The notes beneath the pieces are model-generated. The model made no database searches and was not told the origin of the DNA. It worked only from the letters and a program-made list of their open reading frames with translations. From NCBI GenBank assembly GCA_018340375.1, contig JAFFJZ010000007.1, positions 4,030,001 to 4,094,000 of the forward strand: a DNA stretch of 64,000 nucleotides, written 5' to 3'. The DNA comes from Gonatopus flavifemur. Its lineage: Eukaryota > Arthropoda > Insecta > Hymenoptera > Dryinidae. This document shows, piece by piece, positions 18,114 to 53,100 of the stretch (positions are counted from its first letter, which is position 1; each line of letters opens with the position of its first letter). The position numbers were made by a program, and so were the translations under genes.

Positions 18114-19172
18114 TCAGAAATAAAGGGTGGCATTTACAAAGAATCTGAATAAGGCATCTAATACATTAAGCTTTTCGCTTTTTAATAAATCAACAATATT
18201 ACTTGGATTTTTCAACCCAAGTCTATCAAGATCTGTGAATAGAGCAGATCTTTCTAGAGAATGTTTTGGACATTTGAAGACTACGTGATTAATGTCCTGT
18301 AATGATTCGTCGTCGCAATCACATCTAGGATCGTCTATATAATTTTGCCTCCATAATGAATGATTAAAATTATAATGATTTGCTCTAACTCTATTTATAA
18401 GAACTATGAATCTTCTAGACCTTTTAAGCTTCACAAACCAGGGATCTCCTTTTGTATTATAAAAATTTTCAAAATAAAAACTTCCTTTATTTTCATCCGA
18501 TGACATTTTCTTTAACTTTGGAAAAAATTCTGTCTTGATTTTACTGACCTTGATAGCACTTAAATTAGTGTGTGGTATTAGAACCTCCTTTTTTAAATCT
18601 ATAATACTATTAATATCACATTCTGCCATTACTGCAGCTTTTTTAGCTAGAAGGTCAGCAATATCATTTCCAATAATTCCTACGTGCGAGGGGATCCAGC
18701 AGAATAACAAAGTTCCATTATTTTCCTTAAGTTTATTTATCACAGTAACTGCTTTTTGTCTCACATTCAGATTGAATGGATGTAATTCTTTGTTGGATGA
18801 AAAAGATTCGAGAGCTTGTAGAGAAGAACGAGAATCCGAAAATATGATATAGTGTGATTTATAATTTTGTATCAAATCGAGTGCTCTTTCCAACGCATAA
18901 TTTTCAGCTGAAAAAATATCACAGGACTTTAGTAATGAGATACTTTGTTTAACATTTAACGAACTAGAGTAAATTGCAGCACCCGTGGCTTTGCCGTTTA
19001 ATATTACTGAACCATCAGTGAAAACTGTGATAGGTAATGCACTTAAATTAGTTAGTCTACTATAACGGTCTAGAAAGCTATCTAAATCTATTTGATTTTC
19101 AATTTCAAAACCAGAATCTATATCTATGGGAAGATTAGTGTAAAAGGAAAAATAATCGTGAGAAAAATGCAA
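18114..19172 (-). pseudogene. Non-LTR ORF2 C-terminal part: RNase H
   Basis: RNase H removes RNA from the cDNA hybrid during target-primed reverse transcription. Catalytic landmarks appear in order: ITVFTDGS (D), SAENYALERAL (E), IIFSDSRSSLQAL (D) and CWIPSHVGIIGNDIADLLA (H and D). Downstream is a CX-C-H-C-like tail (CDCDDESLQDINHVVFKC), common at the end of such ORF2 proteins. The frame matches 19881-21995 but is separated from it by a segment in another frame. Sequence upstream of the first Met still reads as protein (SSNSASRKDKYSSN), so the frame break is near 19205. Confidence 0.85.
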
Positions 19173-19218
19173 ATTAACATTTGAGGAGTATTTGTCTTTC
19201 CGTGAGGCAGAATTTGAA

Positions 19219-19851
19219 CTATATATGTAAGGAATGTATAGATTGATTGAAGTTCGGCTTAAGCATATTAGCTTTAGCTATCGAATTATTGAGCTTTTTT
19301 AACTCTTCGGTTACAGGATGAGATTCCAAACTAAAACATTTTAGTAAATATCTGTGTCCCAAAATCAGTGCTCTGTCTGTTAGAAAGAGTAATTTAGCTT
19401 CCTGATGCATTACGACAATTGGCGTAGAATTTCGGTAACCATATGCAATTCTTAAAGCATTATTTTGTACAATCTTTAGCTTTCTCACGTCTTTTTCTCG
19501 ACCAAATTTACAGAAAATAAAAATACCGTATTCCAAAACGCTTCTTACCAGGCCCTTGTAGATATTAAGAAGCGTGATGGGATCACCTCCCCACCATGTT
19601 TTCGTCAGATATCTTAATATATTGATACGGGATTCTGATTTATCACATATATATTTAATATGATAATTATATGTTGAATGACAGTCCAAATAAAGGCCTA
19701 GAAACTTGACTACATCATTTGAGGTTTTCAAGATATTTTTTAAAGATATCGAGTCTTTACAGCTAACGCATCCGTACTGAGAACTAATTTTCTTATGAAA
19801 ATTGATATAGAAAGTTTTTTCAATAGAAAGTTCCAAATCTAAATTTTTCAA
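19219..19851 (-). pseudogene. Non-LTR ORF2 middle part: RT thumb and connection
   Basis: This frame continues the reverse transcriptase past the YADD motif: DLELSIEKTFYINFHKK, then KFLGLYLDCHSTYNYHIKY, then LLNIYKGLVRSVLEYGIFIF. These are the usual thumb-region blocks of I/Jockey-type reverse transcriptases. It is offset by one base from the flanking parts: the break near 19890 puts a TAA after NSTLNKYF in the upstream frame, and the break near 19205 returns to the original frame. Two opposite single-base changes explain the pattern. Confidence 0.8.
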
Positions 19852-19880
19852 GAAATCATAGACCGCATGAAAATCTCTTA

Positions 19881-21995
19881 TTAGAAATATTTATTTAGTG
19901 TTGAGTTTAAAAGTGATTTTGGGACTAACATACAATCATCAGCGTATTCGATTAAGTTGATTTCCTCAGGAATATTTTTTGCTATTTCTCTAATATAAAA
20001 GTTAAAAAGAATTGGGCTGGGAACACCTCCCTGGGGTACTCCTTTAGTAACAGTTTTTTTGCAGGGTTCTTCATGTTTTCTGAATAAAATGTTTGTTCTT
20101 TTTAGAACACACTTTTGTATAAACACGGTCATTTTCGACGGGCAGTTTCTGGTAATCATATTATTTATTAATTTACTAGGATTTATATTATCAAATGCAC
20201 CTTTTATATCAAGAAAAAGAGTTGGTAATTCTTTTCCTTCTAACATGAAAGTTTCAATTCTAGCAGTGAGGAGAGCCAAGTTATCTATACAAGAAAAACC
20301 TTTCCGAAAGCCGAATTGTAGTTTATAATTTATTTTTTCTTTTTCAGTCCAGTGGTTGAATCTTAAGGCTATTAATTTTTCAAAAACTTTACAAACAGAA
20401 GAAGATATAGAAATTGGTCTTAAGCCCTTACCATTACCTTTTTCAATAAAAAAGGTAAGGTATTCATTCCATGAGTTTGGATATAACTCTTGCTCATAGA
20501 ATGCATTGAAGATATCCAGAAGAGTTAAATGAAAGTCCATCGGTAAATTTCTAAGTATTACGTTATCGAATTTATCAAGACCTGGAATTTTTTTAGCTTT
20601 CAAAGCAGTAATTATTGATGAATATTCGCTTAAGTCAAATGGTTTGTTATATATTGAGTTTTTACTTTCTGTGCTATAATTTGAGATTGACTCTTTATTA
20701 GATTCCTTTGATATATTATCGATCAGCACCCTCTCCATGTCGGATCTCACTTTGTGGTCAAATGACTGATTACTGAGAGACGAAAAAGCATTTGCCTTAT
20801 TTTTAAAATATTTCATTGTTTTCCAAACAACAGATAGATTTGAAAATCTGTTAAGTCTTTCGGTGTATTTCACAAAGGCTTCTTTCTTTTTAGCTTCAAG
20901 TGTTTTCTTTGTCAACGCAACCAACCTCCTCCATTCATACCAATTTTCAGGTGAAAAGTTACATAAAGCTGTTCTCATTGCTTTTTCTCTTTTTTTTATA
21001 AGTGGAGTGCAATCATCATCCCACCAGGGGGCTGGAGTTTTTTTGTATGCTTGAAAATAATTATTGCCATTGTTAGTATTCTTTTGATTTTTTTTGATCG
21101 ACTTCTCTTCTGAGTTTCGCGAATTGGCATATTCTAAAGCATCAGATATTATACCCCCAAAAAGATCATATTTTTCTAAACAGTTCAAATTAAAGTACGC
21201 TGGAGAGTAGAAAGTATCTTTGATTGAGAACAGATATTGATAAAATAGAGACCAATTCGTTTTCTTATTGTGGAGAGACTGGTTAAGTTTTATAAATTTC
21301 GAGGAGCTTTTACTGAAGAGTCTAATTTCAAAAAAAACTGGAAAGTGATCTGAACCCCAAGAATCAGAGCATGTTTCATATGAAATTAAATCTAAAACCT
21401 TGTTATTTCCTATAATTAGGTCTAAATTAGAAGTGGAGTTGTCCGAAAAGTGAGTTATAGTATCATGATTCAAGACGAATAGATCTTCAGATGATATGGC
21501 ATTCGATAATTGTATTCCATTATTGTTTGTATCCAAACAATTCCATTGTCTGTGATGAGAATTAAAATCCCCAACAAAAATATTATGCTCACTCGGATCA
21601 AAAATATTGAAAATCCTTTGCCATTCATCTATATTATTGTTAAGACCTGGAGATCTATAAATTGCGAAGAAATTGATAACAGGGTTAGTGTTAAGAACAG
21701 AAAAACATACATGTTCAATGTTATATTTGATGTTTCGAATGATCAAATTGTTCTCAGTACGGATTGACAAATTTGTTTTGAAATATATAACAATTCCACC
21801 TCCCTGACGGCCTATTCTAGGCCTATTGATATAATTATAACCATTAATAGTGGGAACATAAGTATCATCAAACCAAGATTCAGTCACTATCATAATGTCG
21901 AAACGATTCCTCGCATGGAACTTAAATTCTTCTAATTTCATACGAAGAGATCTAGCATTCCACAAAACAATTTTTAGTTTAGATGGTTGAGACAA
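19881..21995 (-). pseudogene. Non-LTR ORF2 N-terminal part: endonuclease and RT
   Basis: The first about 230 residues are an AP-type endonuclease that nicks target DNA: IVLWNARSL (N), IVTESWF (E), AIYRSPG, FVGDFNSHH and WGSDHFPVF. The reverse transcriptase follows, with SISSSVCKVFEKLIA, QFGFRKGFSC, FLDIKGAFDNI, KGVPQGGVPSPILFN and LIEYADDCMLVP. The frame closes soon after YADD because of a frameshift. The start MSQPSKLKIVLWN places the endonuclease at the very N-terminus, as usual. ORF1 ends 110 bases upstream. Confidence 0.88.
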
Positions 21996-22104
21996 AGTAT
22001 AAAGAAATATTCGAAATTTATGATGTAGATATGTAATGAGAATAAGAAAAGGTGAAAATAGTTAGTTAGGTTAACAAATAATAAATACTACCAGAAATTT
22101 AAGT

Positions 22105-23781
22105 TTAAGACTTTACTTCTTTGTCTTCTTCTGGATAACGATGAATTAAGGATTTAGCATTGCAATGAGCGCTGCAAAATTCATTTCTAAGTTCCTCAGC
22201 AGCCATTAGAGTAAGTCCTCCTTTGTGTCTGCTTTTCAAGATATTACAAAGTTCTTTCAAAGCTTCGTCCGTGTAAGGTGGTGAAGGTTTTCGTCCTTTT
22301 TGAGTTTTGAAGTTCGATAAGTCGATGAGATAATCCGTGGACTCTTCAAACTCTCTTATAAGAGGAACAGCTTTTTCTTCAGGTAATTTGCGATATTTAT
22401 TTAGAATTTCATGTTGAAGATCAACAAATTCGCTTCCTCTGATTAGTGGAAGCGAATTATTTTTCTGTTCTTCAATTATCACTTGGTTTGTGACGATAGG
22501 TGCTATTTTAGATGATGACGATGATGAAGGTTCTTTACTTGCATTTATTTTAGTTTCTTGAGACAAGATTTTATTATTGCTTTTGTTCACGTTGACTATA
22601 CTTGAAGATGATGTTGTATTTGGTTCTTTAATTGCTGGGAAGTTTTTGTTGTAGTTCAGATTTAGACTATCCGATCCATTTGCATTTTTTGGAACATTCG
22701 TATATCTTGCGCAATCTTTAAATAATTTAAATTGTTTTTCAGCTTCATAAGGTGAGATATTATGAATTGCGCTTTTTTCCATTACTAATTCATCTGCTTT
22801 GTATTCTACGCAATTGAAAGAAGTAGGAATATGTTTATCCCCACAGTTAACGCATTTTGTTTCTTTACGGCATCGTTCTCTGGGGACTTTGGGATCTACG
22901 TTATTTCCAAGATGGTATCTTTCCCCACAATTTATACATAGTGTTTCCTTGTTACAAAATTTCTTGGAATGACCAAAATTGTAACATTTAAAACAGATTT
23001 TGACATTTTGTACACATTCTTTGACTTTATAAGGCGTGAGACCAAACAAGAACACATCTTCTGGGATAAATTCACCTTCAAAAGTAATTACGACGCTTTC
23101 AGTTGGTATTTTAACCCAACCATTCTCAGCTTTATCAGATCTGATGAATTTATGTAATCTGTATGCAACTAATATTTTAAACTCACTGGTTTTCTTGTAT
23201 TTGAAAAGATTTAATAAATTGAAGCTCGTTAAGACTCCATGGATAATTCCTTTTCTACTCAAGTTTCGATATGGTATATGTGCAGTCAGACCTTCTGTTT
23301 TCAAATTTGGGTTTGCAATAAGCTCATTAGCTTTTTTAAAGTCATTGAAATCTATACCTATCTTCTTGAAGCCTAGATCCACAATTTTACAGTCTCTAAG
23401 ATCCATTTCCGCGAGTTTACAGCATATTTCCATATGGTTTTGTTTTTTTAACCTTTTTGTCTTATTGTTATCTAAAACAACTGCCACTCTATGTAAGCTG
23501 TTCTTGTACTGATATTTATAAAGATTTACGCTTTTTCTGTCTTCCATTTTATTTTTTTTAGGTTCTTCAACTTCAATCTTATCTTCAGGTTTTCTTTTGT
23601 TTTTATTTTCTATATTATTGATTTCCTTGTCATTATGTAAAGTTTCATCCATTAAATAGTTCAAACCGTAGTATGTCATTTCTTTATTTAAATTTTCATT
23701 CGTATCCATGTTGTCGTCTCCTTGAATCGCATGTTCTCCGCTTATATTATTAGAATCATTTCTTGTCTCCACTTCCGACAC
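22105..23781 (-). CDS. Non-LTR ORF1, Gag-like zinc-knuckle protein
   Basis: The 558-residue open frame encodes a nucleic-acid-binding protein that packages element RNA. The N-terminal 90 residues are acidic and Asn-rich with a basic patch. A globular region follows, then CCHC knuckles: CFKCYNFGHSKKFC at about 263-276, then a cysteine cluster starting CINCGERYH, then CVNCGDKHIP with a later cysteine. A Ser-rich linker (SSSSSKIAP) precedes the C-terminal part. The frame is intact, unlike ORF2 of the same element. The ATG at 23781 is the first in frame, close to the presumed 5' UTR. Confidence 0.82.
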   Translation of the reverse strand: MSEVETRNDSNNISGEHAIQGDDNMDTNENLNKEMTYYGLNYLMDETLHNDKEINNIENKNKRKPEDKIEVEEPKKNKMEDRKSVNLYKYQYKNSLHRVAVVLDNNKTKRLKKQNHMEICCKLAEMDLRDCKIVDLGFKKIGIDFNDFKKANELIANPNLKTEGLTAHIPYRNLSRKGIIHGVLTSFNLLNLFKYKKTSEFKILVAYRLHKFIRSDKAENGWVKIPTESVVITFEGEFIPEDVFLFGLTPYKVKECVQNVKICFKCYNFGHSKKFCNKETLCINCGERYHLGNNVDPKVPRERCRKETKCVNCGDKHIPTSFNCVEYKADELVMEKSAIHNISPYEAEKQFKLFKDCARYTNVPKNANGSDSLNLNYNKNFPAIKEPNTTSSSSIVNVNKSNNKILSQETKINASKEPSSSSSSKIAPIVTNQVIIEEQKNNSLPLIRGSEFVDLQHEILNKYRKLPEEKAVPLIREFEESTDYLIDLSNFKTQKGRKPSPPYTDEALKELCNILKSRHKGGLTLMAAEELRNEFCSAHCNAKSLIHRYPEEDKEVKS

Positions 23782-27337: not shown

Positions 27338-28009
27338 TTCATGGGACGATTTTTAAACTTAGATACAGCCACGAAATACTTGTTAGGATTGATTCAATTA
27401 AAGATTTTTCATGTGATAATAACATATTGTAATCGCTAAATGTATTTTAAAATATTACATCTCAGGTTATTATAAGTATTCTGTTCTGAAAGATAGTTAA
27501 GGGCACTTCATCAGAAGAAGCGGGTAAAATTTGCGTTGATTTTTTTCATCAATTACTTGATAAATCCGAATTTAAAATAGGTGGTCATTTCAGGAACTTG
27601 CACACCTAACATTGAACTTCAAATGTAAAATCAGGTTTCCTCTTGTTTTGCAGGTATTAGAAAACAAATTTATAAACATTTGTAGGTTATTACTCTTGAA
27701 CCCCTCTTATACTCGCCAGGAATCAGTAAAAGACAAAAACTTATATTTAGATACTGATCTTCATCGTGGATTTCATTGTTATGTAGTTGAAATTTCCCGT
27801 AAAAGCATAACTTATGGAAAAAGTTGGCGCAACATTTGACTCGCTTCTTCTGATGCTTGAATGCCTTCAAGTGTCGTCCAAAACTCCCCAATCTCACAGT
27901 GGTGAATTGGCTCAGCGCACAGTGGGGCCAAATGCCAAAAAGCTGGACAAAATTATAAGGGGCTCTCAAATTCGCTTGCGACTTCGTACTCGGGAAGCTT
28001 ATGGGCTCA

Positions 28010-28925
28010 CTGATTACGAATCCGTTGTCACAATTTCAAAATTCAAAATGGCGGATCCAATATGGCGGACGAAAATTGAAAGAAACCATCGGATTTTCTT
28101 CAAACTTGGTGATCAGGGGTTTTTGGGGTCGCTGATTACGAATCTGCTGTTTGAGTTCCGAAATTCAAAATGGCGAATCCAATATGGCGGACGAAAATTT
28201 TAAAAATCATCGGATTCTCCTCAAATTGGGTACCCAACGGTTTTTGGGGTCGCTGATTACGGATCCGTTGTTTTCATTTCGAAATTCAAAATGGCGGATC
28301 CAATATGGTGGACGAAAATTGGAAGAAATCATCGGATTTTTTTCAAATTTGGTGATCAGGGGTTTTCGGGGTCGCTGATTACGAATCCGCTGTCTGAGTT
28401 GCCAAATTCAGAATGGGGAATCCAATATGGCGGACGAAAATTGAAAAAATTATCGGTTTCTTTTCAAATTGGGTACCCAGGGATTTTTGGGGTCGCTGAT
28501 TACGAATCCGTTGTCTGCATTTCGAAATTCAAAATGGCGGATCCAATATGGTGGAATGAAATCGAGAAGATCATCGGATTTTCTTCAAACTCGGCATCCA
28601 GGAGTTTTTGGGGTCACCAATTACGAATCCGTTGTCAAAATTTTGAAATTCAGAATGGCGGATCCAATATGGTGGACAAAAATTAAGGAAATCATCGCAT
28701 TTTCTTCAAACTTGGTACTCAGGGGTTTCTGTGGTCGCTGATTACGAATCCACGGTCTGAAATTCAAAATTCAAAATAACGGACCCAATATAGCGGACGA
28801 AAATTGTAAAAATCATCGGATTCCCTTCAAACTCGGTACCCAGGGGTTTTCGGGATCGCTGATCACGAATCCGTTGTCAGAATTCCGAAATTCAGGATGG
28901 CGGATGCCAAAAATCAAAACTTCAT
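28010..28925 (+). repeat. Subterminal array, eight ~121-bp units
   Basis: The core ATGGCGGATCCAATATGGCG recurs with its ATG at 28048, 28170, 28291, 28413, 28534, 28655, 28777 and 28897, a spacing of 120-122 bases. Each unit also contains ATCATCGGATTTTCTTCAAA, GGGGTCGCTGATTACGAATC and GAAATTCAAA. The overlapping ORFs here (27814-28741) are translations of the repeat: a 121-bp unit changes frame each time, so no frame crosses the array. Confidence 0.92.
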
Positions 28926-29151
28926 TCATAACTTAATATTAAACAAGAACTAAACGGCCCATTTTGTTGTTCCTATTATGATCATTATTATTATTATTTC
29001 CAACATTGAATCATCATTAATATAATTATCGAATAATATTAACACACCAAATGTGTTAAATCGAAAGATATATACATTCAGAATATATACAATAATATAA
29101 AAAACTGAAATCGTAATGGTTTTCACTTTTGCCACACTTTTTTTACTCAGA

Positions 29152-31772
29152 TCAGTCTTCTCCTTCACTCTCAGAGGAAGATAATGGGAAAGTTACGTTG
29201 TCTTTATCAAGTATATCCGGAGTTTTGATCAGTCTTAACACGTCTCTAGGGAGGAACTTTAGTTTTTTCTTGGGCAACTGTCTTTTACTCGATAACATTG
29301 GATCAGAACTCGGAAGGAACCATTTAAAAATGTCTCCATTCGTTTTTTCTCTACTGCATTTCCTGGAGTGATGCTCTCGGTACCTTTGGAAATGAATGTT
29401 GTTAAGATATTTGAATATAATTATGTATTCATCGACACCGTTAAAGCTTTTGATCTCAACATGACAAGCAAAATCAAGGAAAAACAAAAAGCAGCTGCAC
29501 TTTGGGGTCATCAGTATAAAGTTTTGAATAAATCCTCTAATTCATAAGTTTACTTGATTCTCAAAATTGTTTTCTAGTCTATGAATTTATGTTTCCAGAG
29601 GATGAACAATGTGGCTTATTAATAAAAAAAAGTATATGAATATTCATAATTCCCCGAATTCCTTACCAGAACAAAACAATCTTCGCGAACATATATTCTC
29701 GTGGTTACCATAAATATATAGTTTGCCTAGTAGTCAAAAACGTATTGTGCAATGTATCAAACTGATTGCAGTACTTGAGAAGTCAAATTTTTCCCTTCAA
29801 AGTGTCGAGTCCACTGTGACAAATATAGACTATTATTAAGTGATATACATCATTTTCACCTCTTAAAATCTTTGTTACAAGCCTCTTGTGCTTCCTCAGT
29901 CAATTGGCCTATAGGTAGAAAGAAGAGCAGATGCAATGATTTCAGGTCCGTGGATCAAAAACTTGTGCATCGTAGGTGACATTGGGTACCACGGATAATT
30001 TGTCGCATAGTAGCGTGCCGACCAAAGCGTAACTCCGAAACTTTTCAACGTCTATTTCATGGCCACTTGAAACGGTAGCTAATACTACATGAAGTCGTTG
30101 TATTAGGTTGACATCCACCCCTGTGATTCCGGCAGAAACTTCGGGTTGTGCGAAAAATCGCCTAGCGGTATTCCCATCATTTGAGTTCCCAAACCCTGGC
30201 TTAGGAACATCGACAATGAGGCCACATTTTTCTTTAAAACTTTTCTGTACAACCTTTTTTCGTTCTTCCACCAAAGCTTTATCTTGTTTTCGTGCTTGCC
30301 ACTTCTGAATAGGTAGCTTATAAGACAAATGCAGGAGGCCCTCAAAAAATCGTATCCAGCCGTGTAGACAAGACAAACCAAACTGGAGGTTTTCGGTTTT
30401 GACCGGCCTGGATACTATATCATCAATTTTGTTGAATTCCTTAGATGTGGCACCACATATATAGCACTTCTGGGTATAGGTTGTCTCAGTTATGGCATTG
30501 CATACCTTCCCATCCACCATAGAAAAAATCATCTCATGTTTCACTGAAACATATTTTTCATCAGTTCTGAAAGAAGTAGCCCTCAGATTTTCTATTTCAT
30601 TATCAACCCGTAGCTTCTCTGCAACCGAAACTTCAGTTGATTCTTTCACAAACTCTATTTTGATTGGCCTACAAAATCTGGTTGATGATGGCCTTGGATT
30701 CTGCCAAATTATTTTTGAATTGCAGTGTAGGCGGAGAGGCACAAGTGAAGTAATGCACACAGCGGAATCACTAGCTTCCGAACTTTGATATGCTTGTTTG
30801 TATGAGGAGTGGCCAGAGCTCCCATCAAACCCCCATTTGGAAATAAGTACCAGGTTTCGTAACTCTTCATCAGATAAAGTTGACAAAACCGAATTCTGTA
30901 GCTTTAAAATACGTGTAGCTGTGTGATCAAGAAGTGCTTGTAGTTGCACAACAGCGCAGGTTTCTGTTATTTGAATAAATTCCTTGTCAGGGAAACACAT
31001 GCGTTTGGCCAGTTGAATTTTTTTATAAGGTGGAAATTTCTGCGGATCAGCTTCACGCAATAAGCAGTACTGATGTTTTGAGAGCTCGGCATCTACTAGG
31101 AGAGCTAGAGCATCTTCATCATTCAACATCTTTGGCTCATTTCGCTTGAAAGTTTGATAACCTTTTATATACATTTTGGCAAGCTCAGGATCAGAAGATG
31201 TAACATCCTTTACAATTTTTGCGGCTTCGATCTGTCCAGACGCTCTCAAACACATTTGTGTGGCGTAAGACAGCTCTGAGATAGGAGTATTTACTCTGAT
31301 ATTCTCCGTTTTCCTACGTTTCGTTCTTTCTGAACATTCGTTGAATTCAACAAGAGGTCTTCCCACTTGCGTGTGAACAGTTACAGAATGGGAATTCCTG
31401 AAAGTACAAAACACTACCTTTTGTTTTAACCATTCTTCATTATTTTTAAGAAATCGTTCTTCGGTCCTTTGAGAAGATTCCCATCTCTTTTTAAATACAC
31501 ATTTAAAAGTAGATAAAAGGTTAGAGATCTCTGTAGTTTTGTTATCCGGACAACACGTTATCTCGATGATTTTTCCGTGAAGGAAAGTGAACTTTTCATC
31601 CAACGTAGGTAGAGGACTGCTCCTTAGAATATTGTACATCTCTCTCCGAGTCATAGATATTGAATCATCTTTGAAATCTACAAACGTTGTAGAATTCGAT
31701 AAAATTCGCTACAGAAACCCCATGTGTTTCTAAAAATTTTCCTAATTTTCTTGGGTTGGATTCAACCCTCTT
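29152..31772 (-). pseudogene. RAG1/Transib-like transposase, frameshifted
   Basis: The main open frame (31654-29942, 570 codons) contains KWGFDGSSGHSSYKQ with a candidate catalytic D277, PRPSSTRFCRPIKIEF, a zinc-type CYICGAT at 397-403, CLHGWIRFFEG and NDGNTARRFF. These parallel RAG1 CxxCxAT, LHxxI and GNxARxF. The protein then continues in other frames: near 29998 a +1 change gives YPWYPMSPTMHKFLIHG, and near 29920 another gives LPIGQLTEEAQEACNKDFKR, the expected site of the catalytic glutamate. An intron follows (29859-29384, GTGAAA to AAAG), and the last exon (29383-29152) starts YREHHSRKCSREKTNGDIFK and ends in an acidic tail. Upstream, KFLETHGVSVANFIEFYN (31772-31688) joins by a third frame change. 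The residue matching RAG1's second catalytic aspartate looks like lysine or glutamate. Family assignment is from memory of motifs. Confidence 0.82.
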
Positions 31773-32159
31773 AAGCTAATTTTTTTTGCAGTCAACTGTT
31801 CAAATTAAACTACTAAGAAAATATAGGTTGTTGAAACACTCACCTATGGCAGCGGAATCCATCTCATTTGGAATTGTACGTTAACATTGAATGATTTTAA
31901 AAAACGAAAAATATTCACCAAGCTCCAAACTTGCACGCGGAAAAAAGTTTACGGTAACGATTACTAGCAAGAGTAAGAATTCGGTGAAAGCTATTGCACA
32001 ATTGTGATAAGCACCATTTGAAATCAGACCGATTACAACCAACTATTTACGTTGCCATGGAAACGATAGGTTAACATAAGAACGATCACCAAATCGCGAG
32101 TCATGATTCAGTTCACGAAAAGAAAAGAGATATCAATACTTGAATAACATTTATAAACA

Positions 32160-32370
32160 TTTAGGAAAATGACGGTTACTTTAGGGAAAAGAGCATCGCT
32201 GAAGAATGTTAGCAGTGAAGTTACCAAAAATTCGTAGTAATAATACTAAATGTTGGTAGTTTTATTGTCATTTCCATAGTGAATTCATCAACTCATAGTA
32301 AATTCACTACGAATATTCTCCAGCAATACTGTTTTTCTCTCAATGGTCCATCATCTTCCTAAATATCAAT
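32160..32370. mobile_element. CACGGAAAA-type hairpin nested in RAG-like element
   Basis: AAATGACGGTTACTTTAGGG and its partial inverse with CTTCCTAAATAT bracket a segment with ACTACGAATATTCT. It is closely related in layout to 14557-14855. A possible outer end CACGCGGAAAAAAG lies near 31935. Confidence 0.5.
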
Positions 32371-32529
32371 GATTTCTGGCTTTTGTGTACCCTAAGCCCG
32401 CGATGAGAAGAAAAACGAATGGTAATCAATCTCATACAGTTTTCCTCGTGCAGCAAATGTACACTGGAAATAAAACACATACTAACGTTGAGATAAAATT
32501 CAAAGCGAATCTACTGAATTCTGAGTTTT

Positions 32530-33000
32530 GTGTCCACCATATTAGATGCGCTATCTTTGATTCTTGGAATTTGACAACTGATTCGTAATCAATGACCCCA
32601 CAAAACCCTGGATACCGAGTTTGAAGGAAATCTGATGATTTTTTCAATTTTTTTCTGCCAAACTGGATCCGCCATTCTGAATTCCGGAATTCAGACACCG
32701 GATTCGGAATCAGCGACCTTAAAAACCTCAGGGTACCGAGTTTGAAGGCAATCCGATGATTTTTTCAATTTTCATCCGCCATATTGGATCCGCCATTTTG
32801 AATTTTGAAATTCAAACAACGGATTTGTAATCAGCGACCTCAGAAACCCCTGGGTCACGGATTTGAAGAAAATCCGATGATTTCTTTCAATTTTCGTCCG
32901 CCATATTGGATCCGCCATTTTGAATTCCGAAATGAAGACAACGGATTCATAATCAGCGACCCCACAAACTTCTGCATATCAAGTTTCAGACGGATCTAAG
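32530..33000 (-). repeat. Subterminal array, about four ~121-bp units, inverted
   Basis: The core appears as CCGCCATATTGGATCCGCCA at about 32770 and 32895, with weaker versions near 32534 and 32652. It is the reverse complement of the unit at 28010-28925, so both arrays point inward from the nearest end of the transposon. Confidence 0.9.
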
Positions 33001-33593
33001 GACTCCTCATCACTCCGTCTAATTTTTTGTGATTTCCTGCACAAAAACATGGCGGAATTGCTTAGGGGCAGACATGGGCAGCCGTTTTTTTTTCTGATGT
33101 TTAGGTAAGAGTCCCATCTACCACCTCCAATAAGTTAAACGACGTAATTTTGCGTAATTCCCTACTATTCCTTCAAAAACCAAACACATTTTCTCATTTA
33201 TAGATATAGAAATTACATCCAATCATTGCTCTGTCAGTATTTTCCACTCATCAAATTGATATTCTCTTAATTTTTAGTGTATTCTACATAGTTTCAGTAA
33301 TAGACTCCAATTTGAAAAAGTTAAATCGGTTCATTTTTCGAGACGCAACGTCTTTTTGAACATGCTCGTTATTTTACTGTCTTTCAATCACGCGGATTAT
33401 ACTCCAAGGAGGGTATTTTGCAACTGGTACATAAGGGCAAGGGGAGGGGATCAGATCTTCTTATATCAGAATTCCAATACTTGGGACATCACCTAACTTA
33501 TCCCAAGGGTCAAATATCCCCAACTACAAACTTCATTTTTGGGGTTTTGGCCAGCTTTTTGGCATTTGGCCCCACTGTGCAGCGGTTCGCGTG

Positions 33594-33727
33594 TTATGGT
33601 CTAGACACACAAGCTACGTAAACGTGAACGTAAGAAACGGAAAGATGCGCAGAAATTGTATACAAGATCTGCGCATCCTTTCGTTCGTTACGTTCACGTT
33701 TACGTAGCTTGTGTGTCTAGACCATAA
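33594..33727. mobile_element. TTATGGTCTAGACACAC hairpin MITE
   Basis: The palindrome has arms TGGTCTAGACACACAAGC and the exact inverse, with TA at both sides. The GCGTAAACGTGAACGTAA-like inner parts also pair. It lies ten bases outside the right target duplication of the RAG-like transposon. Confidence 0.8.
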
Positions 33728-34154: not shown

Positions 34155-36194
34155 TTATTCTCCATTATTGGTATCAACAATGCTTTTGACATATAGATTG
34201 CCATTCAGTCTTGTTCGTGAAGATTTTTCAATTTTGAAATCAAAACCGGTACTATTTTCTAAGAATCTCTTGGTATGCATACAACCATTCACGGTTTCGG
34301 TGGAAAGACGGTTACGCTGATCAGTTATTATATTATTGATCGAGGAAAAAATTCTTTCCACGTTAGCACTGGAATGAGGTAAGCTGAGCATCGCAAAAAC
34401 AAATTTTGTGAGCAGAGGAAACATTTGATTTGAATCAGCAAATTTTAATTCACGTACTTTTTTCCAGAAGTTTGTGACGTTTTGTTCTTCCAAATCTAAT
34501 TCCGTATTCCTAAACATCCTCCATTCCGTATCCAAAGGCTGGAGATCTTCTTCGTCGATGATGTTAGGAAATCTCAACGCAATATGAGTAATCGTAGGTA
34601 TTTTATTGATGAACGTAGGATTTAAAAAATTTAAATATTCGAAAATAACATCATCCAATGGTATTCGATGGTGAATTTGCTGTACTCCTTCAATATAAAA
34701 ATCCAAACAACGTAATCTGAAAAATTGAATCATTTTTGGGTCCAAAGAAGTGTTGGTATTGATCGTTACTATTACTTTTGCTCCAAAATACATTTTTTCT
34801 AACGGCAAAAAATTTCTTGGGTCTTTATAGCTTATGTCTTTCAAAGGCCGTGAGTGCAAGTAATCTGGATCTAAATAACACTCCATCAATGTTTTCAATA
34901 CGGTGTTGATGTGACCATAAAATTTATGAATTTGTGGTTCCTCTGATTGCATCAGTGAATTCAAATCATTGGAAATTGGCAAAGCAAAGGATAAAAACTC
35001 TAAAAATAGCTTCGTTTGTGGGTCTGATAATTGTTTCAGAATTTCTTCAGTGATAAGTAAACGATCATTTGTCACTGCGCCTATAAAATAAAGTTTCAGC
35101 GCTGCATACTGTTCCAGTAATCTGTCGACAACTTGCCCTAAAGAGAGCCAACGGGTTTGTGCGGGATGGAGTAATTTATGGGGTTTCACTCCAACGAAAT
35201 GTTGGAACTCTTCTAAAACTGATCGGCGTTTGTAACTGTTGCCAAAATAATTATAAATATTCCGAGCAACATCTTCTATTCCTCGAGGTAATTTTTGACA
35301 TGCGTTTGAAGCACACAAATGAAAACTGTGACAAATGCACTTCATTACAAATAAATTTGGGATTTTTTCTCGAAATAATGATTGTAATGAATGATGTTTT
35401 CCCATCATCGTATGAGCTCCATCAGCAGCGAAACTAATCATATTTCTTTGCCAAGGGATTTCGAAATTTTCCATGGTGGAAGTGATGGCGGCATATAAAG
35501 AATCTGCCGATGCGTTAGAGACTGGTAAGAGGATGAAAAAGTTATCCCCAATTTTGGAATAATTGTCAGATGCAAGTCGTACGACTATACACAAATGCTT
35601 AGTGGTTGATACATCTGTTGATTCATTAACAATAACACTGAAAAACTTCTCTTTCATCTCGTCGATCAATAACGATTGACCCTCTGCACCAAGAACGTGT
35701 TTGACTAATGCAGTCGTTTTTGTTCTTGCAGAAACTAGACCTTTTGCAATGTTAGAATCAGGGCAAATTGATCGAATCAAAGATGGCAAGTGATCCATAG
35801 TTTGAAAAGATAAATTATGTTCAGCTATGAAGGCTGCTAAGCGAGTTTCTCCATCTTTTATCTGCGTGGAAAGCTGATTTGAAGAGCTCACAGAAGGAAG
35901 AGAGGTTAATGTTGGTTGTTTATGTACCGATTTGCATTGTGTGAATTGTTTTTTTGATAAGAGGTGTCTTTCCAATTGCATTTTCCCAGCTTTGACAGAA
36001 ATATGATTATCACATGGCTTACAAAAAGCGTATGAATTTCCTTTTTTACTAGCACATAACCATCCTTTGAATTTCGGATCTGTTTCCCAAACTTTATGAT
36101 ATTTTTGGCTATATGTAAGCTTTTTTTTTGAAGGTTTACTATCATTATCAGATTCACTAGTTCCGTTACTCTCCTCGTAATTCAAGTCACTCAT
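34155..36194 (-). CDS. hAT-family transposase, 679 aa
   Basis: It catalyses cut-and-paste movement of the hAT element in which it lies. After an acidic start there is a BED-like zinc finger (CKPC at 58-61, H76 in ERHLLSKKQ). The RNase H-like core has NESTDVSTTKHL at 190-201, SFAADGAHTMMGKHHS at 254-269 and CICHSFHLC at 287-294. The C-terminal dimerisation region reads FAMLSLPHSSANVERIFSSI followed by TDQRNRLS. The frame is complete, has no introns, and is of the usual length. Oddity: relatives normally have an aspartate in the position of N190 (DESTD), so this copy may have lost a catalytic acid although it is open. No other hAT gene is present in the window. Confidence 0.9.
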   Translation of the reverse strand: MSDLNYEESNGTSESDNDSKPSKKKLTYSQKYHKVWETDPKFKGWLCASKKGNSYAFCKPCDNHISVKAGKMQLERHLLSKKQFTQCKSVHKQPTLTSLPSVSSSNQLSTQIKDGETRLAAFIAEHNLSFQTMDHLPSLIRSICPDSNIAKGLVSARTKTTALVKHVLGAEGQSLLIDEMKEKFFSVIVNESTDVSTTKHLCIVVRLASDNYSKIGDNFFILLPVSNASADSLYAAITSTMENFEIPWQRNMISFAADGAHTMMGKHHSLQSLFREKIPNLFVMKCICHSFHLCASNACQKLPRGIEDVARNIYNYFGNSYKRRSVLEEFQHFVGVKPHKLLHPAQTRWLSLGQVVDRLLEQYAALKLYFIGAVTNDRLLITEEILKQLSDPQTKLFLEFLSFALPISNDLNSLMQSEEPQIHKFYGHINTVLKTLMECYLDPDYLHSRPLKDISYKDPRNFLPLEKMYFGAKVIVTINTNTSLDPKMIQFFRLRCLDFYIEGVQQIHHRIPLDDVIFEYLNFLNPTFINKIPTITHIALRFPNIIDEEDLQPLDTEWRMFRNTELDLEEQNVTNFWKKVRELKFADSNQMFPLLTKFVFAMLSLPHSSANVERIFSSINNIITDQRNRLSTETVNGCMHTKRFLENSTGFDFKIEKSSRTRLNGNLYVKSIVDTNNGE

Positions 36195-45624: not shown

Positions 45625-46767
45625 AATTGAACCCACGGGAAGAAGAACTCGATGAGCGCTCGAACCGCGATAAAAGTATTGTCCAAGCGGTCACGCGGGG
45701 GACCGAAAAAAAAGTCGGAATTTTGGAAAACTAAAAATACTGGGTGATAGGGCTTGAAAAATCAATACGAGTGTTCGTTTACAATGTTTTTCTATGATCA
45801 ATAGTTTTCGAGAAAAAAATTAAAAAGTACCTCTTTTTCTCGGACTAAGAATGAATGTTTTTTCATCTTAAACTCGTTATAACTCGATCAGTTTTCAACG
45901 TATCAAGATGAGTCTTGCAGATTCTGATTCGGAACACTCCCCCGAAGATGACGATCTCGACAAAATTTTCAAAAATTGATGCAAAATTAATGAATTTTCA
46001 ATTTGAAGTGAAAACTTGGTTTTCAACGAAGAGGAAAACTTTGCATTGAAAAAGTGTCAGGGTAAGTATGAGCTACGAAAAACTTCCAGCGACAAAGTTG
46101 TTCGCTAGTGTGCGGACAAACTTTATGGGAAGTTTCAGATCAATTGGACTATTAGTTCGAAAGATACAGCGATTTATCCATCAGCTCGCAACGGAAATTT
46201 CTCATGACTCTACGTCGTTTACCTGCTGAATATGAGGATCCGAATGGAAGGTTGCATTCACTCGATTTCTCAACGTAGATTCATGTTTTTTTGGTCGAAG
46301 CATCCAAATATCCAACTATGTTTGCAAAATTCGTTATACATTGTTTTTTTTATAAACAATTTTCATTCAACGCATCATTGTTCAATCCTTATTCTGCAAG
46401 ATGAAAATTAAAGATTGGACATTTGTGTGCTCTCTCGAACTCAATAGTTTCCGAAACTTATTTCACGATTACTTGGCCAAATCTTATCGGAATGATATAA
46501 ACATTGATATCCAGATTCGATGTGTATTGCCGAAGCTTGTAAAATGATTCGAATGATGAAAACATTTCGTTTTTCAATAATATTTGATAACGAATTAGTG
46601 GCTCTCAGGCTCGTGTTTTCCGAGTTTCAACGACACAAAGTGTCGAGCGAAATGTGAAATTAAGAAAACTTCGAACAATAAAGTTATGCTCTTATGTTTG
46701 AGGAAGTTTTTCTGGAAATTTGAAATTAATCGAACAAAAAATATGGGGTTTATGATTTATGTAAAAC
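45625..46767. repeat. Left 1,143-bp terminal inverted repeat
   Basis: It runs from AATTGAACCC to TTTATGTAAAAC and mirrors 50090-51232. It is rich in short frames but without a recognisable protein. Confidence 0.9.
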
Positions 46768-46965
46768 AAGCGGAGCCGCCGAGCACGCAGGACTTCGGTG
46801 TTGACGAATGGAGACACGTAACATCAAATAAAAACAAATGCCTATATAGTAATTGCAACCGTAAGAATAGAAAACATCGCTCCCTCCGATGTGAGAAAAA
46901 GTGCATAATTCCACATTTTGAACAATTTTATTATTGAATTTATTTTCCGGGTTAGTGTAATAATA

Positions 46966-49061
46966 ATGTCTGATGAAAACAGTTCAAAAACTGGTCGAAA
47001 ACGTACAAGAAATCCGAACAACTGGATAAAGAACAAAAATAAAAAGGCTCAAAATGAGGTTTGTATATTCCGTATATATATTTAGTATAATACAGTGTGC
47101 AATGGAATGGTGCTGTCAACAAATTTCTTAATTTTCCATGCATAACTGAGACATAATACATTTGTATTCTCGCAGTCATCGATGTATAAATATTTCTGTA
47201 TCTAACAGTCATCCAACCCATAGAGCATCGAAGATTTCATTACGACCGCAGAAATCTAACGTTTGAAATATTGGAATATTCTTGTAATATTGCTGCATGC
47301 CGTACTGAGATTTCAAAGTCCTTTCACAAATATTGCAACGTCCGCTAATCTTACATTGCAATACAAGATTTCTGGATTATTTTTGGAATATTTCAAGAAC
47401 ATTTATGAAATATTTCATTGTAATCTTTCTTTTGTAATATATTTGAAACATTGCAAATAGGTAACATTTCAGTTGAAGGATTTTCCATATATTCTTGTGG
47501 AACAATATTGAAATGTAATGAAGATGAAAGAATGAAATACAATCGATACATTTTACTGAAATAATTTTTAAATAGTGTGTTACAGTCGATACAAAATTAT
47601 TACTTAAAAATAATTATTCAATGTTGAGAACTTGGATAGTGTTTGGAATATCGAATTGTATAACGCGATCATTTGGTATTACAGGGACGAGAATATGTTT
47701 CGACTTCTGGGAAATCTATTGCAGCTGAGCAACTCAAACCCGTAAATTCGTGCTGCGTAAAACAGTGTTTCCAAAATATTCCTGTTCAACAACAACAAAA
47801 ATTCCATGACACATTTTGGAACTATGGCAAATATGATTCTCAAAATATTTTCCTCGCTGGATTAATGAAAAAGAGAGCGCCAAATGTTACAGGAAATGCG
47901 CAGAATAAAGTTGTTTTGTGGAATTATTTTTTGCATGCTGAATTCGGTGACATAAAGACTTGTCAAAAATTTTTATGTAATTTATTGAACATAGGACAAG
48001 GGCGATTTACAACTATACAGAAAAAGATATTACATAATGAAACTATCGAAGATAGTCGAGGAAAACATAGAAATCACGTAGTGCGATTGACCGGAGATGT
48101 AAAACAAATGATCCATCAACACTGTTTGTTAATCCCACACTCTGAGTCGCATTATAAACGTCAAGCCGGTCAAACGTCTAGTTTACAATATTTTGATCAT
48201 CCTAATTTAACACTGAAAAAAATATACGCTTCGTTTTTGGAATATTATACAGCGAAAACAGGTTGTGAAAATCCTCCGATTGATTTATCAACCTACTCTC
48301 AATATTTTAATCGTCATTTGAATGCTTCTTTCTCAATACCACGCACTGATGTTTGTAACATGTGTTTTGAACAAGAGCGGCAAAACAATCCTGGTGATGA
48401 GTTCAAACAGCATAAAAAAAGTATAGAAGAGTACAAAATATTGAAGAAGAAAATGTTGGCAGAAGAAAATGTGTTATGTCTTGAATTTGATTTCGGTCAA
48501 AATTTACCTTTGCCGAAAATTCCTGTATCAGATCAGTTCTACAAGAGATTGCTTTGGCTACACGTTTTTGACGTGCATGTCTTCGGTGAACATGGCAGAA
48601 GTCACATGTTCTTTTTTTTAGAAGGAAATTTTGAGAAAGGTGGTAATACTGTGTGCAATTTTATCTTACATGCAATGAAGAAAGAATTGGAGCTTAATTA
48701 TTACAATAAAATTTATTTATTTTCGGATGGTTGCGGTGGTCAGAATGAAAACCGTTTCCTCGTCTCTTTCTTATCATCGTTGGCTCAAGAATTGCAACTT
48801 GAATTTGAACATGTGTATCCAGTTCGTGGACATTCATACTGCTTTTGCGATCGGAATTTCGGAGTATATGGCAAAAAAAAGAAACAACTTGAAACTATTG
48901 AAACGGATGAAGACTACATTGATCTCATAGAAAGTGCAAGAAATCCACCATTTAAAATTGTCAGAGAAGTAGATTGCCCAGTCCGAGATTATGAGGTTCT
49001 GTTACAGGAAAATGTCAAAGATATTAAGAATCTGCAAATCAGCGAAGCAGTGCGGATTTAA
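46966..49061 (+). CDS. DDE-like transposase of the long-TIR element, two exons
   Basis: Exon 1 (46966-47058) starts MSDENSSKTGRKRTRNPNNW and ends at a GAG/GTTTGT donor. Exon 2 (47685-49061) follows a TTACAG acceptor in phase 0 with GREYVSTSGK. Together they give 489 residues. A basic N-terminus leads to a Cys pair (VCNMCFEQE), then LEFDFGQNLPLPKIP, LFSDGCGGQNENRF and PVRGHSYCFCDRNFG. The two aspartates with GCGGQN and the H-S-Y-x-x-x-D block match a transposon-associated domain of insect and cnidarian proteins that I recall as DUF7869. The frame ends at a TAA (49059), yet the same frame continues as coding-like sequence for 81 codons to 49307 (YFPNGQINIFQSYNGEPKIH onward), so the TAA is probably a nonsense mutation. 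Position between equal terminal repeats makes it the element's transposase. Confidence 0.8.
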
Positions 49062-49307
49062 TATTTTCCTAACGGTCAAATCAATATATTCCAAAGTTAC
49101 AATGGAGAACCAAAAATTCATATCATCAAATCATCAGTGAGTTTGGATGCATTATGCAAATCACCACCAGCTGCTCCAACTGGCATAAGTGCAGAGAAGA
49201 TGGAAGATTTACAAACTTTATTAAAATATTTGAGTTCAAGAGGTGTAAAATTTTTTGAAAGCTTATTTTCGAAAATATCAATTAGAAAACCTAAAAATAA
49301 AGAATAA
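49062..49307 (+). pseudogene. Transposase C-terminus beyond a nonsense codon
   Basis: This is in frame with 46966-49061 and separated only by TAA. The 81 codons end KISIRKPKNKE and a natural-looking TAA, followed by A+T-rich sequence. Coding-like composition and continuity of frame support its having been part of the same protein. Confidence 0.65.
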
Positions 49308-49431
49308 TTATTCACTCTAATGATATAATTTATTTTTTTTGTTCAAAATATATTGTATGCAGTTTGAATCGTTTATTCACATGAATTTTTGACAGTGTAT
49401 TGTGTCCAAGGGGGGCAATTTTGGTTCATTA

Positions 49432-49720
49432 CACGGAGAAAAAAGATTTCGCTATCTGAATGAATCCGTCTTCGCTAAGTGGATTGAATAGAAAGTCGCT
49501 GTATTAACGAACCAATGCGCTGGATTCACGAACTGATTCGCTGTTTTTACGTATTGATTCGTTATAATTATCAGTCCTTCGCAGGTCTTGCGAAGCTTGA
49601 TTCGTTGAGAATATCATTGGCGTTTATTTCAGCAAACTTGCTTGCTGTCCGTATAATAACGAGCGAATTTCGCTGGAACAGTGAAATTCTTGCTATTCCA
49701 GCGAATCTTTTTTCTCCGTG
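49432..49720. mobile_element. CACGGAGAAAAAAGATT MITE with TA duplication
   Basis: The ends are CACGGAGAAAAAAGATTTCG and CGAATCTTTTTTCTCCGTG, with TA at both sides. The interior repeats AGCGAA/TTCGCT words. It is nested in the long-TIR transposon, between the gene and the right arm. Confidence 0.85.
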
Positions 49721-49832
49721 TACCCTCACAACACAACTGCTTTCAGTTACCTTTCGATACCTTTCTGAAACGTGTAACACTTTTCAGAAAGGTATCGAAA
49801 GGTAACGGAAAGCAGTTGTGCTGTTAGGGTAA
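49721..49832. mobile_element. Short hairpin MITE (TACCCTCACAACAC ends)
   Basis: A 112-bp palindrome with arms ACAACTGCTTTC and CCTTTCGATACCTTTCTGAA pairing with their inverses. It abuts the previous element. Confidence 0.75.
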
Positions 49833-50089
49833 CATTGAATTCGAATTAAATGTGTCCGAATTCAATTCGACAATCATGTCTATAAACAATTCAAAGTTCA
49901 CTAGCATTTCCAAATCATTTATGACTGAAGAAAAAGTACAGATAATGAACTTTTATCACGAGGTTTGTATGTGTCATATATGATGTGAATGATATCCAAA
50001 CACGTTGCATGAGACATTTTAAACTTGTCTGAAATATATTTCAAGACATGAATATGATGTTATACAGGACCCGTTCATAAGACGAGATC

Positions 50090-51232
50090 GTTTTACATAA
50101 ATCATAAACCCCATATTTTTTGTTCGATTAATTTCAAATTTCCAGAAAAACTTCCTCAAACATAAGAGCATAACTTTATCGTTCGAAGTTTTCTTAATTT
50201 CACATTTCGCTCGACACTTTGTGTCGTTGAAACTCGGAAAACACGAGCCTGAGAGCCACTAATTCGTTATCAAATATTATTGAAAAACGAAATGTTTTCA
50301 TCATTCGAATCATTTTACAAGCTTCGGCAATACACATCGAATCTGGATATCAATGTTTATATCATTCCGATAAGATTTGGCCAAGTAATCGTGAAATAAG
50401 TTTCGGAAACTATTGAGTTCGAGAGAGCACACAAATGTCCAATCTTTAATTTTCATCTTGCAGAATAAGGATTGAACAATGATGCGTTGAATGAAAATTG
50501 TTTATAAAAAAAACAATGTATAACGAATTTTGCAAACATAGTTGGATATTTGGATGCTTCGACCAAAAAAACATGAATCCACGTTGAGAAATCGAGTGAA
50601 TGCAACCTTTCATTCGGATCCTCATATTCAGCAGGTAAACGACGTAGAGTCATGAGAAATTTCCGTTGCGATCTGATGGATAAATTGCTGTATCTTTCGA
50701 ACTAATAGTCCAATTGATCTGAAACTTCCCATAAAGTTTGTCCGCACACTAGCGAACAACTTTGTCGCTGGAAGTTTTTCGTAGCTCATACTTACCCTGA
50801 CACTTTTTCAATGCAAAGTTTTCCTCTTCGTTGAAAACCAAGTTTTCACTTCAAATTGAAAATTCATTAATTTTGCATCAATTTTTGAAAATTTTGTCGA
50901 GATCGTCATCTTCGGGGGAGTGTTCCGAATCAGAATCTGCAAGACTCATCTTGATACGTTGAAAACTGATCGAGTTATAACGAGTTTAAGATGAAAAAAC
51001 ATTCATTTTTAGTCCGAGAAAAAGAGGTACTTTTTAATTTTTTTCTCGAAAACTATTGATCATAGAAAAACATTGTAAACGAACACTCGTATTGATTTTT
51101 CAAGCCCTATCACCCAGTATTTTTAGTTTTCCAAAATTCCGACTTTTTTTTCGGTCCCCCACGTGACCGCTTGGACAATACTTTTACCGCGGTTCGAGCG
51201 CTCGTCGAGTTCTTCTTCCCGTGGGTTCAATT
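50090..51232. repeat. Right 1,143-bp terminal inverted repeat
   Basis: It runs from GTTTTACATAAA to GGGTTCAATT and is the reverse complement of 45625-46767. Confidence 0.9.
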
Positions 51233-52086: not shown

Positions 52087-53100
52087 ATTGGATCCGTCAT
52101 CTCGAATTCGTTTTCTGACGTCAAATTTGAATCCCGCACCCTCGAAAACCCCTAAAACCGATGTTCCATATACATCTGTCTATAAATGCAAAAATCTCTG
52201 AATTCACGTCCGCGATATTGAGATCCACCACGATGGATTTGTTCTCTGACTTTAGATTTTGATTCAGCACCCTTGGAAATCCCTAAAACCTGTGTTCCAT
52301 AAGGACCCAGCCATGAATGCCAAAACTGCTGAATACACGTCCGGCATTTTGAATCCGCCATTCTAAGTTCGTTTCATGACATCAGATTTGTTTTCCTCAT
52401 CCTCAAAAACACCTAGAACTCATGTTCCATAAAAATATGCCCATGAATTCCAACACGACCAAACTCACGTCCGCTGCATTGGGTCCGTAATTTTGAATTC
52501 ATTTTTCGACGTCAGATTCGGATCACGCATCCTCGAAAATCTCTAGACTCCATTTTCCATGATAATCTGTCCATGAATCTCAAAATGATTAAATTTACGT
52601 CCACCATATTGAATTCGCCATCTTGGATTCTTTTTTTACTCTAGATTTGTATTCTACACCCTCGAAAACCTCCAGGACCCATGTTTCATGAAAATCCGTT
52701 CATAAACACAATCATGCTTTTATTCAAGTCCACCATATTGGACCCGCCATTTTGAATGAATTCTTTGACGTCACATTTGGATTCCTCATCCTCAAGAACC
52801 CCTAGGATTCGTGTTTCCTAAAAATCTGCCCATGAATGCCAAAACGACTAAATCAATCTCTCCATATTGGATCTGCTATCTTGAATCCATTTTTTAACGT
52901 CATATTCGGATCACGCATCCTCGAAAATCTCTAGACTCCATTTTCCATGATAATCTGTCCATGAATCTCAAAATGATTAAATTTACGTCCAGCATATTGG
53001 ATCCACCATCTTGAATCCGTTTCTGGACATTAGATTTGGATTCATATTCCTCAAAAACCCCTAGAACCCATGTTTCATAAAAATCCGTGTATGCAAGCCA

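Follow-up and report, generated by a model that had tools for sequence, protein, structure and literature searches.

A Transib transposon was identified at positions 27918-33579 of a 64,000-nt stretch of the genome of the dryinid wasp Gonatopus flavifemur (contig JAFFJZ010000007.1), which is referred to here as the window. The element is almost certainly a degraded copy of a young Transib family present in high copy number in this wasp. The family appears to be a new one of a known kind, its newness being judged from the literature. Both ends of the element read CACAGTGGGGCCAAATGCCAAAAAGCTGG and form an exact 29-bp inverted repeat, of which the first 7 bp are CACAGTG. When the first 19 bp of the end were searched allowing up to three mismatches, only the element's own two ends were detected in the window, and the mean number of matches in 100 shuffled sequences was 0.00. 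The bare heptamer CACAGTG is frequent in the window (11 observed versus 4.43 expected), and the evidential weight is therefore carried by the full 29-bp repeat together with the target-site duplication. The initial annotation had described such a transposon in an insect, with the heptamer inside a perfect 29-bp inverted repeat, the 5-bp duplication CAGCG on both sides and a RAG1-like gene as the only gene in between, and in all these respects it was confirmed.

Within the element, just one open reading frame (ORF) of at least 150 aa is present, a 570-aa ORF on the reverse strand (29942-31654). It matches the transposase of HzTransib from Helicoverpa zea, the structure of which has been solved (PDB 6pqn), with an E value of 3.7e-92 and with 42% identity across positions 31060-30026 of the window. 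Conserved segments of the C-terminal part are split between other frames (YPWYPMSP in one, LPIGQLTEEAQE in a different one); the window copy therefore contains frame breaks at two places, close to 30023 and to 29920. Both precede the codon for the catalytic glutamate, which is out of frame, and the last exon is open. Since insect homologues read through at the region between the two exons, it looks like an intron; its putative acceptor is altered in L025, one of four copies shown. A coding-like piece in another frame is located upstream of the main exon, on the N-terminal side of the gene.

The main exon is open in another copy, L011, and the part of its protein that begins at residue 177 and runs to the exon end aligns with positions 8-427 of the HzTransib chain (E value 1.6e-113). 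Residues D277, D381 and E590 of L011 align with D126, D225 and E436 of HzTransib, for which the published numbering and that of the chain differ throughout by 17; these are the catalytic residues as published (PMC6941560). A profile built from seven relatives, six from named insects, plus one stray row of two bases, reached RAG1L at 2.5e-8 and RAG1 at 1.7e-6, and a relative from Osmia (P0061) passes the Pfam cut-off for RAG1. The RAG1-like or Transib-type nature suggested initially for the protein was thus borne out, and placement in an unrelated superfamily by a profile search was not seen.

The insertion of the element into a host repeat is directly visible. Its two flanks were joined with one CAGCG, the junction being at position 150, and the whole genome was searched with this query. 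The best 40 of 1418 candidates were scored, yielding 41 rows, three of which represent the window itself. Each of the remaining 38 rows, all from other copies of the host repeat, aligns without a break over the junction, from query positions 1-5 to 161-166, with 94-97% identity, and in the five copies fetched a single CAGCG is present at this place. It follows from these uninterrupted copies that the insertion took place within another repeat and was accompanied by a duplication of 5 bp. An extra CACAGTG in the left flank (27895-27901) is there by chance; the five fetched empty sites have CACAGCG at this position. The same host repeat is disturbed a second time about 13 bp to the right of the element, beyond its duplication, by a palindrome (33594-33727) with two 67-bp arms that are 91% complementary. 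It is missing from the five fetched empty sites and represents another insertion or rearrangement in this repeat.

Searches for further copies, as proposed in the initial annotation, covered an assembly of 402 contigs with a total of 636.05 Mb, whose best COX1 match is the dryinid wasp Dryinus sp. (82% identity). Counting both ends, 606 exact occurrences of the 29-bp end were found, and none of the reversed sequence used as a control. If any base is allowed at positions 4-7 and the following 22 bp are kept constant, 634 places are obtained, 606 with CACAGTG and 28 with other heptamers. The left 69 bp as a query gave 951 candidates, and the best 40, which were scored, are all 100% identical; for a 551-bp query from the right end, 669 candidates were obtained, the best 40 showing 98-100% identity. 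Of the 40 left-end places listed, all selected by full identity over the left 69 bp, 20 were fetched. In 19 of them a right end was located when up to four mismatches were allowed, and these elements are 4.1-7.4 kb long. L015, without a right end within the fetched stretch, was left out of the copy counts. Together with the window copy, 20 bounded copies were available. Among the 19 fetched right ends, chosen without the condition of an exact match, 18 begin with CACAGTG and one with CACAGTA. Copies with different ends, a possible objection to the initial proposal, are therefore represented only by rare variants.

Exact 5-bp duplications flank 14 of the 20 bounded copies, compared with 29 of 380 pairs of flanks taken from different copies. 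In these 14, C is found 12 times at position 1, G ten times at position 2, C 12 times at position 4 and G 12 times at position 5. The duplications are GC-rich and approach CGNCG, the sequence named as the Transib target (PMC4735498). The 616-codon frame of the main exon is open in seven of the 19 other bounded copies, six of which contain the exact motif QLTEEAQ. Pairwise distances in the interior of the elements have a median of 2.0% (range 0.6-4.0%, 190 pairs). Taken as sequence comparisons, these data give good support to an abundant and recently active family, and autonomous copies, possibly still active, are probably present among its members. In viral contigs, none of six pattern-matching stretches encodes a relative of P0001, and no match to the 19-bp end was obtained.

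The assignment to the Transib superfamily is supported by a homologous transposase with a DDE triad, by terminal inverted repeats starting with CAC and resembling the heptamer of the recombination signal sequence (RSS), and by 5-bp GC-rich, CGNCG-like duplications, all in a hymenopteran host. Some observations weigh against the proposed degraded copy of a young, abundant family. The window copy is dead, its own gene being broken by the two frame breaks. No Pfam family scores above the cut-off for either the window ORF or the open copy L011. The sample of copies, chosen by an exact match of the left end, leans towards young ones. Finally, an exact 5-bp duplication is missing in six of the 20 bounded copies, for which recombination between copies would be a likely cause. 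The initial annotation was right on the duplication; apart from a 2-bp CG match, no alternative size recurs in the bounded copies.

Three other explanations were considered. A RAGL/ProtoRAG transposon, characterised by RAG1L and RAG2L genes, would have CAC or heptamer-like ends, 5-bp duplications and homology to RAG1 in common with Transib. The transposase, however, scores 383 bits against HzTransib and only 16 bits (E value 0.019) against amphioxus RAG1L. The suggested search for a RAG2-like gene revealed, besides the transposase, no ORF of more than 174 aa from a Met in six copies including that in the window, although a gene split by introns could escape such a search; a Pfam search of the genome for RAG2 gave no match either, but is weak because its control was equally silent. 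As the protein is far nearer to HzTransib than to amphioxus RAG1L, membership in RAGL/ProtoRAG was rejected as highly improbable. Open frames kept in some copies could also be expected from a RAG1-like host gene domesticated between remnant ends. This is hardly credible for a locus with a broken frame and an existing empty site, and for a sequence with 606 exact ends in the genome and with its own 5-bp duplications in 14 of 20 examined copies. The frequency of CACAGTG by itself might point to chance repeats or an assembly artefact, a possibility that was dismissed as negligible in view of the shuffled sequences, without a single match to the 19-bp end, the empty sites and the many independent copies.

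For the Transib element, transposition would start with the pairing of the two CACAGTG ends by the transposase, which belongs to the DDE enzymes and is homologous to that of HzTransib and remotely to RAG1. By analogy with HzTransib, for which a cut-and-paste reaction with hairpins on the flanking DNA is known (PMC6941560), the ends would be cut by a nick followed by hairpin formation on the flanking DNA. At a CGNCG-like target, the freed ends would then be joined to positions separated by 5 bp, which would account for the 5-bp duplication. The cleavage chemistry and the hairpin step are predicted from homology to HzTransib.

Features of the Transib copy and its borders, given as positions in the window
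Feature	Position	Strand	Remarks
Left target-site duplication	27913-27917		CAGCG; single in empty sites
Left terminal inverted repeat	27918-27946	+	29 bp; heptamer CACAGTG at 27918-27924
Left subterminal array	28002-28910	+	121-bp unit, 7.5 copies; paired ATGGCGG-like motif, altered in some units
Last transposase exon	29152-29383	-	C-terminal part YREHHSRKCSR...; stop at 29152-29154
Putative intron	29384-29859	-	AG/GTGAAA ... CCAAAG/G
Main transposase exon	29860-31654	-	from first Met used; two frame breaks
DDE codons	30824-30826 (D), 30512-30514 (D), 29883-29885 (E)	-	in main exon; E in shifted frame
Right subterminal array	32573-32969	-	unit of the left array inverted, 3.3 copies (4 by motif count)
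Right terminal inverted repeat	33551-33579	-	29 bp; heptamer CACAGTG at 33573-33579
Right target-site duplication	33580-33584		CAGCG

The exact heptamer had initially been regarded as nearer to the vertebrate signal than is common for Transib. It is not exceptional, and not new for Transib, because ends identical to the RSS are already in print: in some Transib ends, both heptamer and nonamer are reported to be the same as in the RSS consensus or in the sites that RAG recognises (PMC6941560), and some resemble a 12/23 arrangement with such heptamers and nonamers, others being symmetric with spacers of 20-22 bp (PMC8355894). Moreover, it occurs in two further families of the same genome (see below). 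At a spacer of 22 bp, nonamer-like blocks matching at 6/9 and 7/9 positions are found at the two ends of the element. The joint chance of at least 6/9 at one shared spacer is 0.005, with eight spacers allowed. Tests of single ends are weak (0.10 and 0.02 for spacers of 20-24 bp; 0.47 and 0.12 for 8-35 bp), and a 7/9 match is also present at a spacer of 10 bp at both ends. The 22-bp arrangement fits the symmetric class of Transib ends. A pair of 12- and 23-bp spacers with the nonamer ACAAAAACC, as in the RSS of V(D)J recombination, was sought but not found on the element ends. The wasp family resembles RAG1/RAG2 and RAGL/ProtoRAG in CACAGTG, the consensus heptamer of the RSS, in its DDE enzyme and in the 5-bp duplications; it differs in its symmetric ends without a 12/23 pair, in that no RAG2 was found, and in the remoteness of the similarity. 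In HzTransib, the ends are likewise symmetric with clear likeness to the RSS heptamer and little to the nonamer (PMC8289069). The putative intron before the C-terminal exon and the 121-bp arrays set the wasp family apart from HzTransib, which was compared by its protein only.

The window ORF shares 50-56% identity, over 74-95% of its length, with Transib-like proteins of Sitophilus, Macrosiphum, Uroleucon, Amyelois, Rhagoletis and Eupeodes. In a tree of 16 proteins, which was midpoint-rooted, did not include RAG1 and RAG1L and had four of 13 inner branches strongly supported, the wasp family falls into a clade of ten rows (support 99/98) with Sitophilus, two aphids, Amyelois, Rhagoletis, Eupeodes and three more. 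Osmia, Temnothorax, Psylliodes and Scirpophaga are placed outside. When the G. flavifemur genome was searched with the Osmia protein and the best 68 of 2561 candidates were scored, two further Transib families were revealed, F2 (L037, L038, L039, L042) and F3 (L040, L041), both carrying DDE motifs. All four bounded copies of F2 have CACAGTG at both ends, and three have an exact 5-bp duplication. Both bounded copies of F3 have CACAGTG at one end, CACACTG at the other, and an exact 5-bp duplication. For L035 and L036, no pair of ends was detected in the 4.9 kb covered. The proteins of F2 and F3 are 44-48% identical to that of the window family, and identities among all three families range from 44 to 52%. 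One 24-bp end of F2 has 19 exact copies, compared with the 606 of the window family, for which both ends were counted. The six ends of the three families share CACAGTGG....AAATGCC.AAAA..TGG, with agreement of at least five of six at each position.

The most surprising feature is that related subterminal arrays, with a period of 121/122 bp, occur in all three families. In the 20 bounded copies, three to 12 units were counted by motif on the left side and two to four on the right; in F2 and F3, with two copies tested each, an array is located near one end. Left units of the window family are 81% identical to those of F2 (14 pairs) and 59% to those of F3 (42 pairs), the units having been located through their motif, a procedure biased towards similarity in the core. 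Outside the motif, 17-23 of 25 positions match in F3 units (shuffle p <= 2e-5), with a reference picked by eye. The arrays thus appear to be homologous, although the proteins of these families are only weakly similar. Either they are a module that is old and has been retained, or elements have passed them to one another. A second tandem array in the window (52087-53085, period about 130 bp) has the same paired ATGGCGG core and is 58% identical to the left units of the window family. Tblastn with Transib proteins gave no match in the window outside 29000-32000, and thus none near this array. As it is as similar as F3 is, with no Transib coding sequence nearby, the arrays may not be a Transib feature.

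It appears rather doubtful that the arrays constitute a conserved subterminal module of Transib, in which paired ATGGCGG-like sites 14 bp apart would be bound by the transposase or by a host factor such as YY1/Pho and would aid transposition or expression. Such a module would be held in families that are only 44-52% identical in protein, and the motif is similar to the YY1/Pho site. Against it stand the array at 52 kb, outside any detected Transib, and the conservation of the paired core, which ranks 8 among 100 21-bp windows of the unit in the window family and 8 of 101 in the 52-kb array, but 62 of 101 in F3; the core is therefore not in every case the part of the unit with the highest conservation. 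If such a module existed, Transib ends would be more than an RSS-like terminal repeat.

Transib in parasitoid wasps is not new, since it has been reported as abundant in Leptopilina boulardi (PMC6035795). A paper joining Transib and Dryinidae was not found in the literature search. According to the G. flavifemur genome paper (PMC8314478), the expansion of DNA transposons mainly concerns CACTA, hAT and Mutator, and Transib is not mentioned in the main text; the family may therefore sit in other classes there. A young, high-copy Transib in which transposase frames are open and the heptamers equal that of the RSS offers a new natural subject for the way RAG-like enzymes read their ends, and three coexisting families allow ends, protein and subterminal arrays to be compared within one host.

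Other mobile sequences are present in the window. A hAT-type transposase ORF of 679 aa (34155-36194) is open and includes the dimerisation domain. A 5.6-kb unit (45625-51232) has inverted ends of 1143 bp, 99.2% identical, which flank a DUF7869 ORF (47673-49061). Pieces of a non-long terminal repeat (non-LTR) retrotransposon are located at 18114-23781, with endonuclease and reverse transcriptase in one ORF and RNase H in another. COX1-like copies (L030, L031, L032) lie in megabase-long contigs and are likely nuclear copies of mitochondrial DNA.

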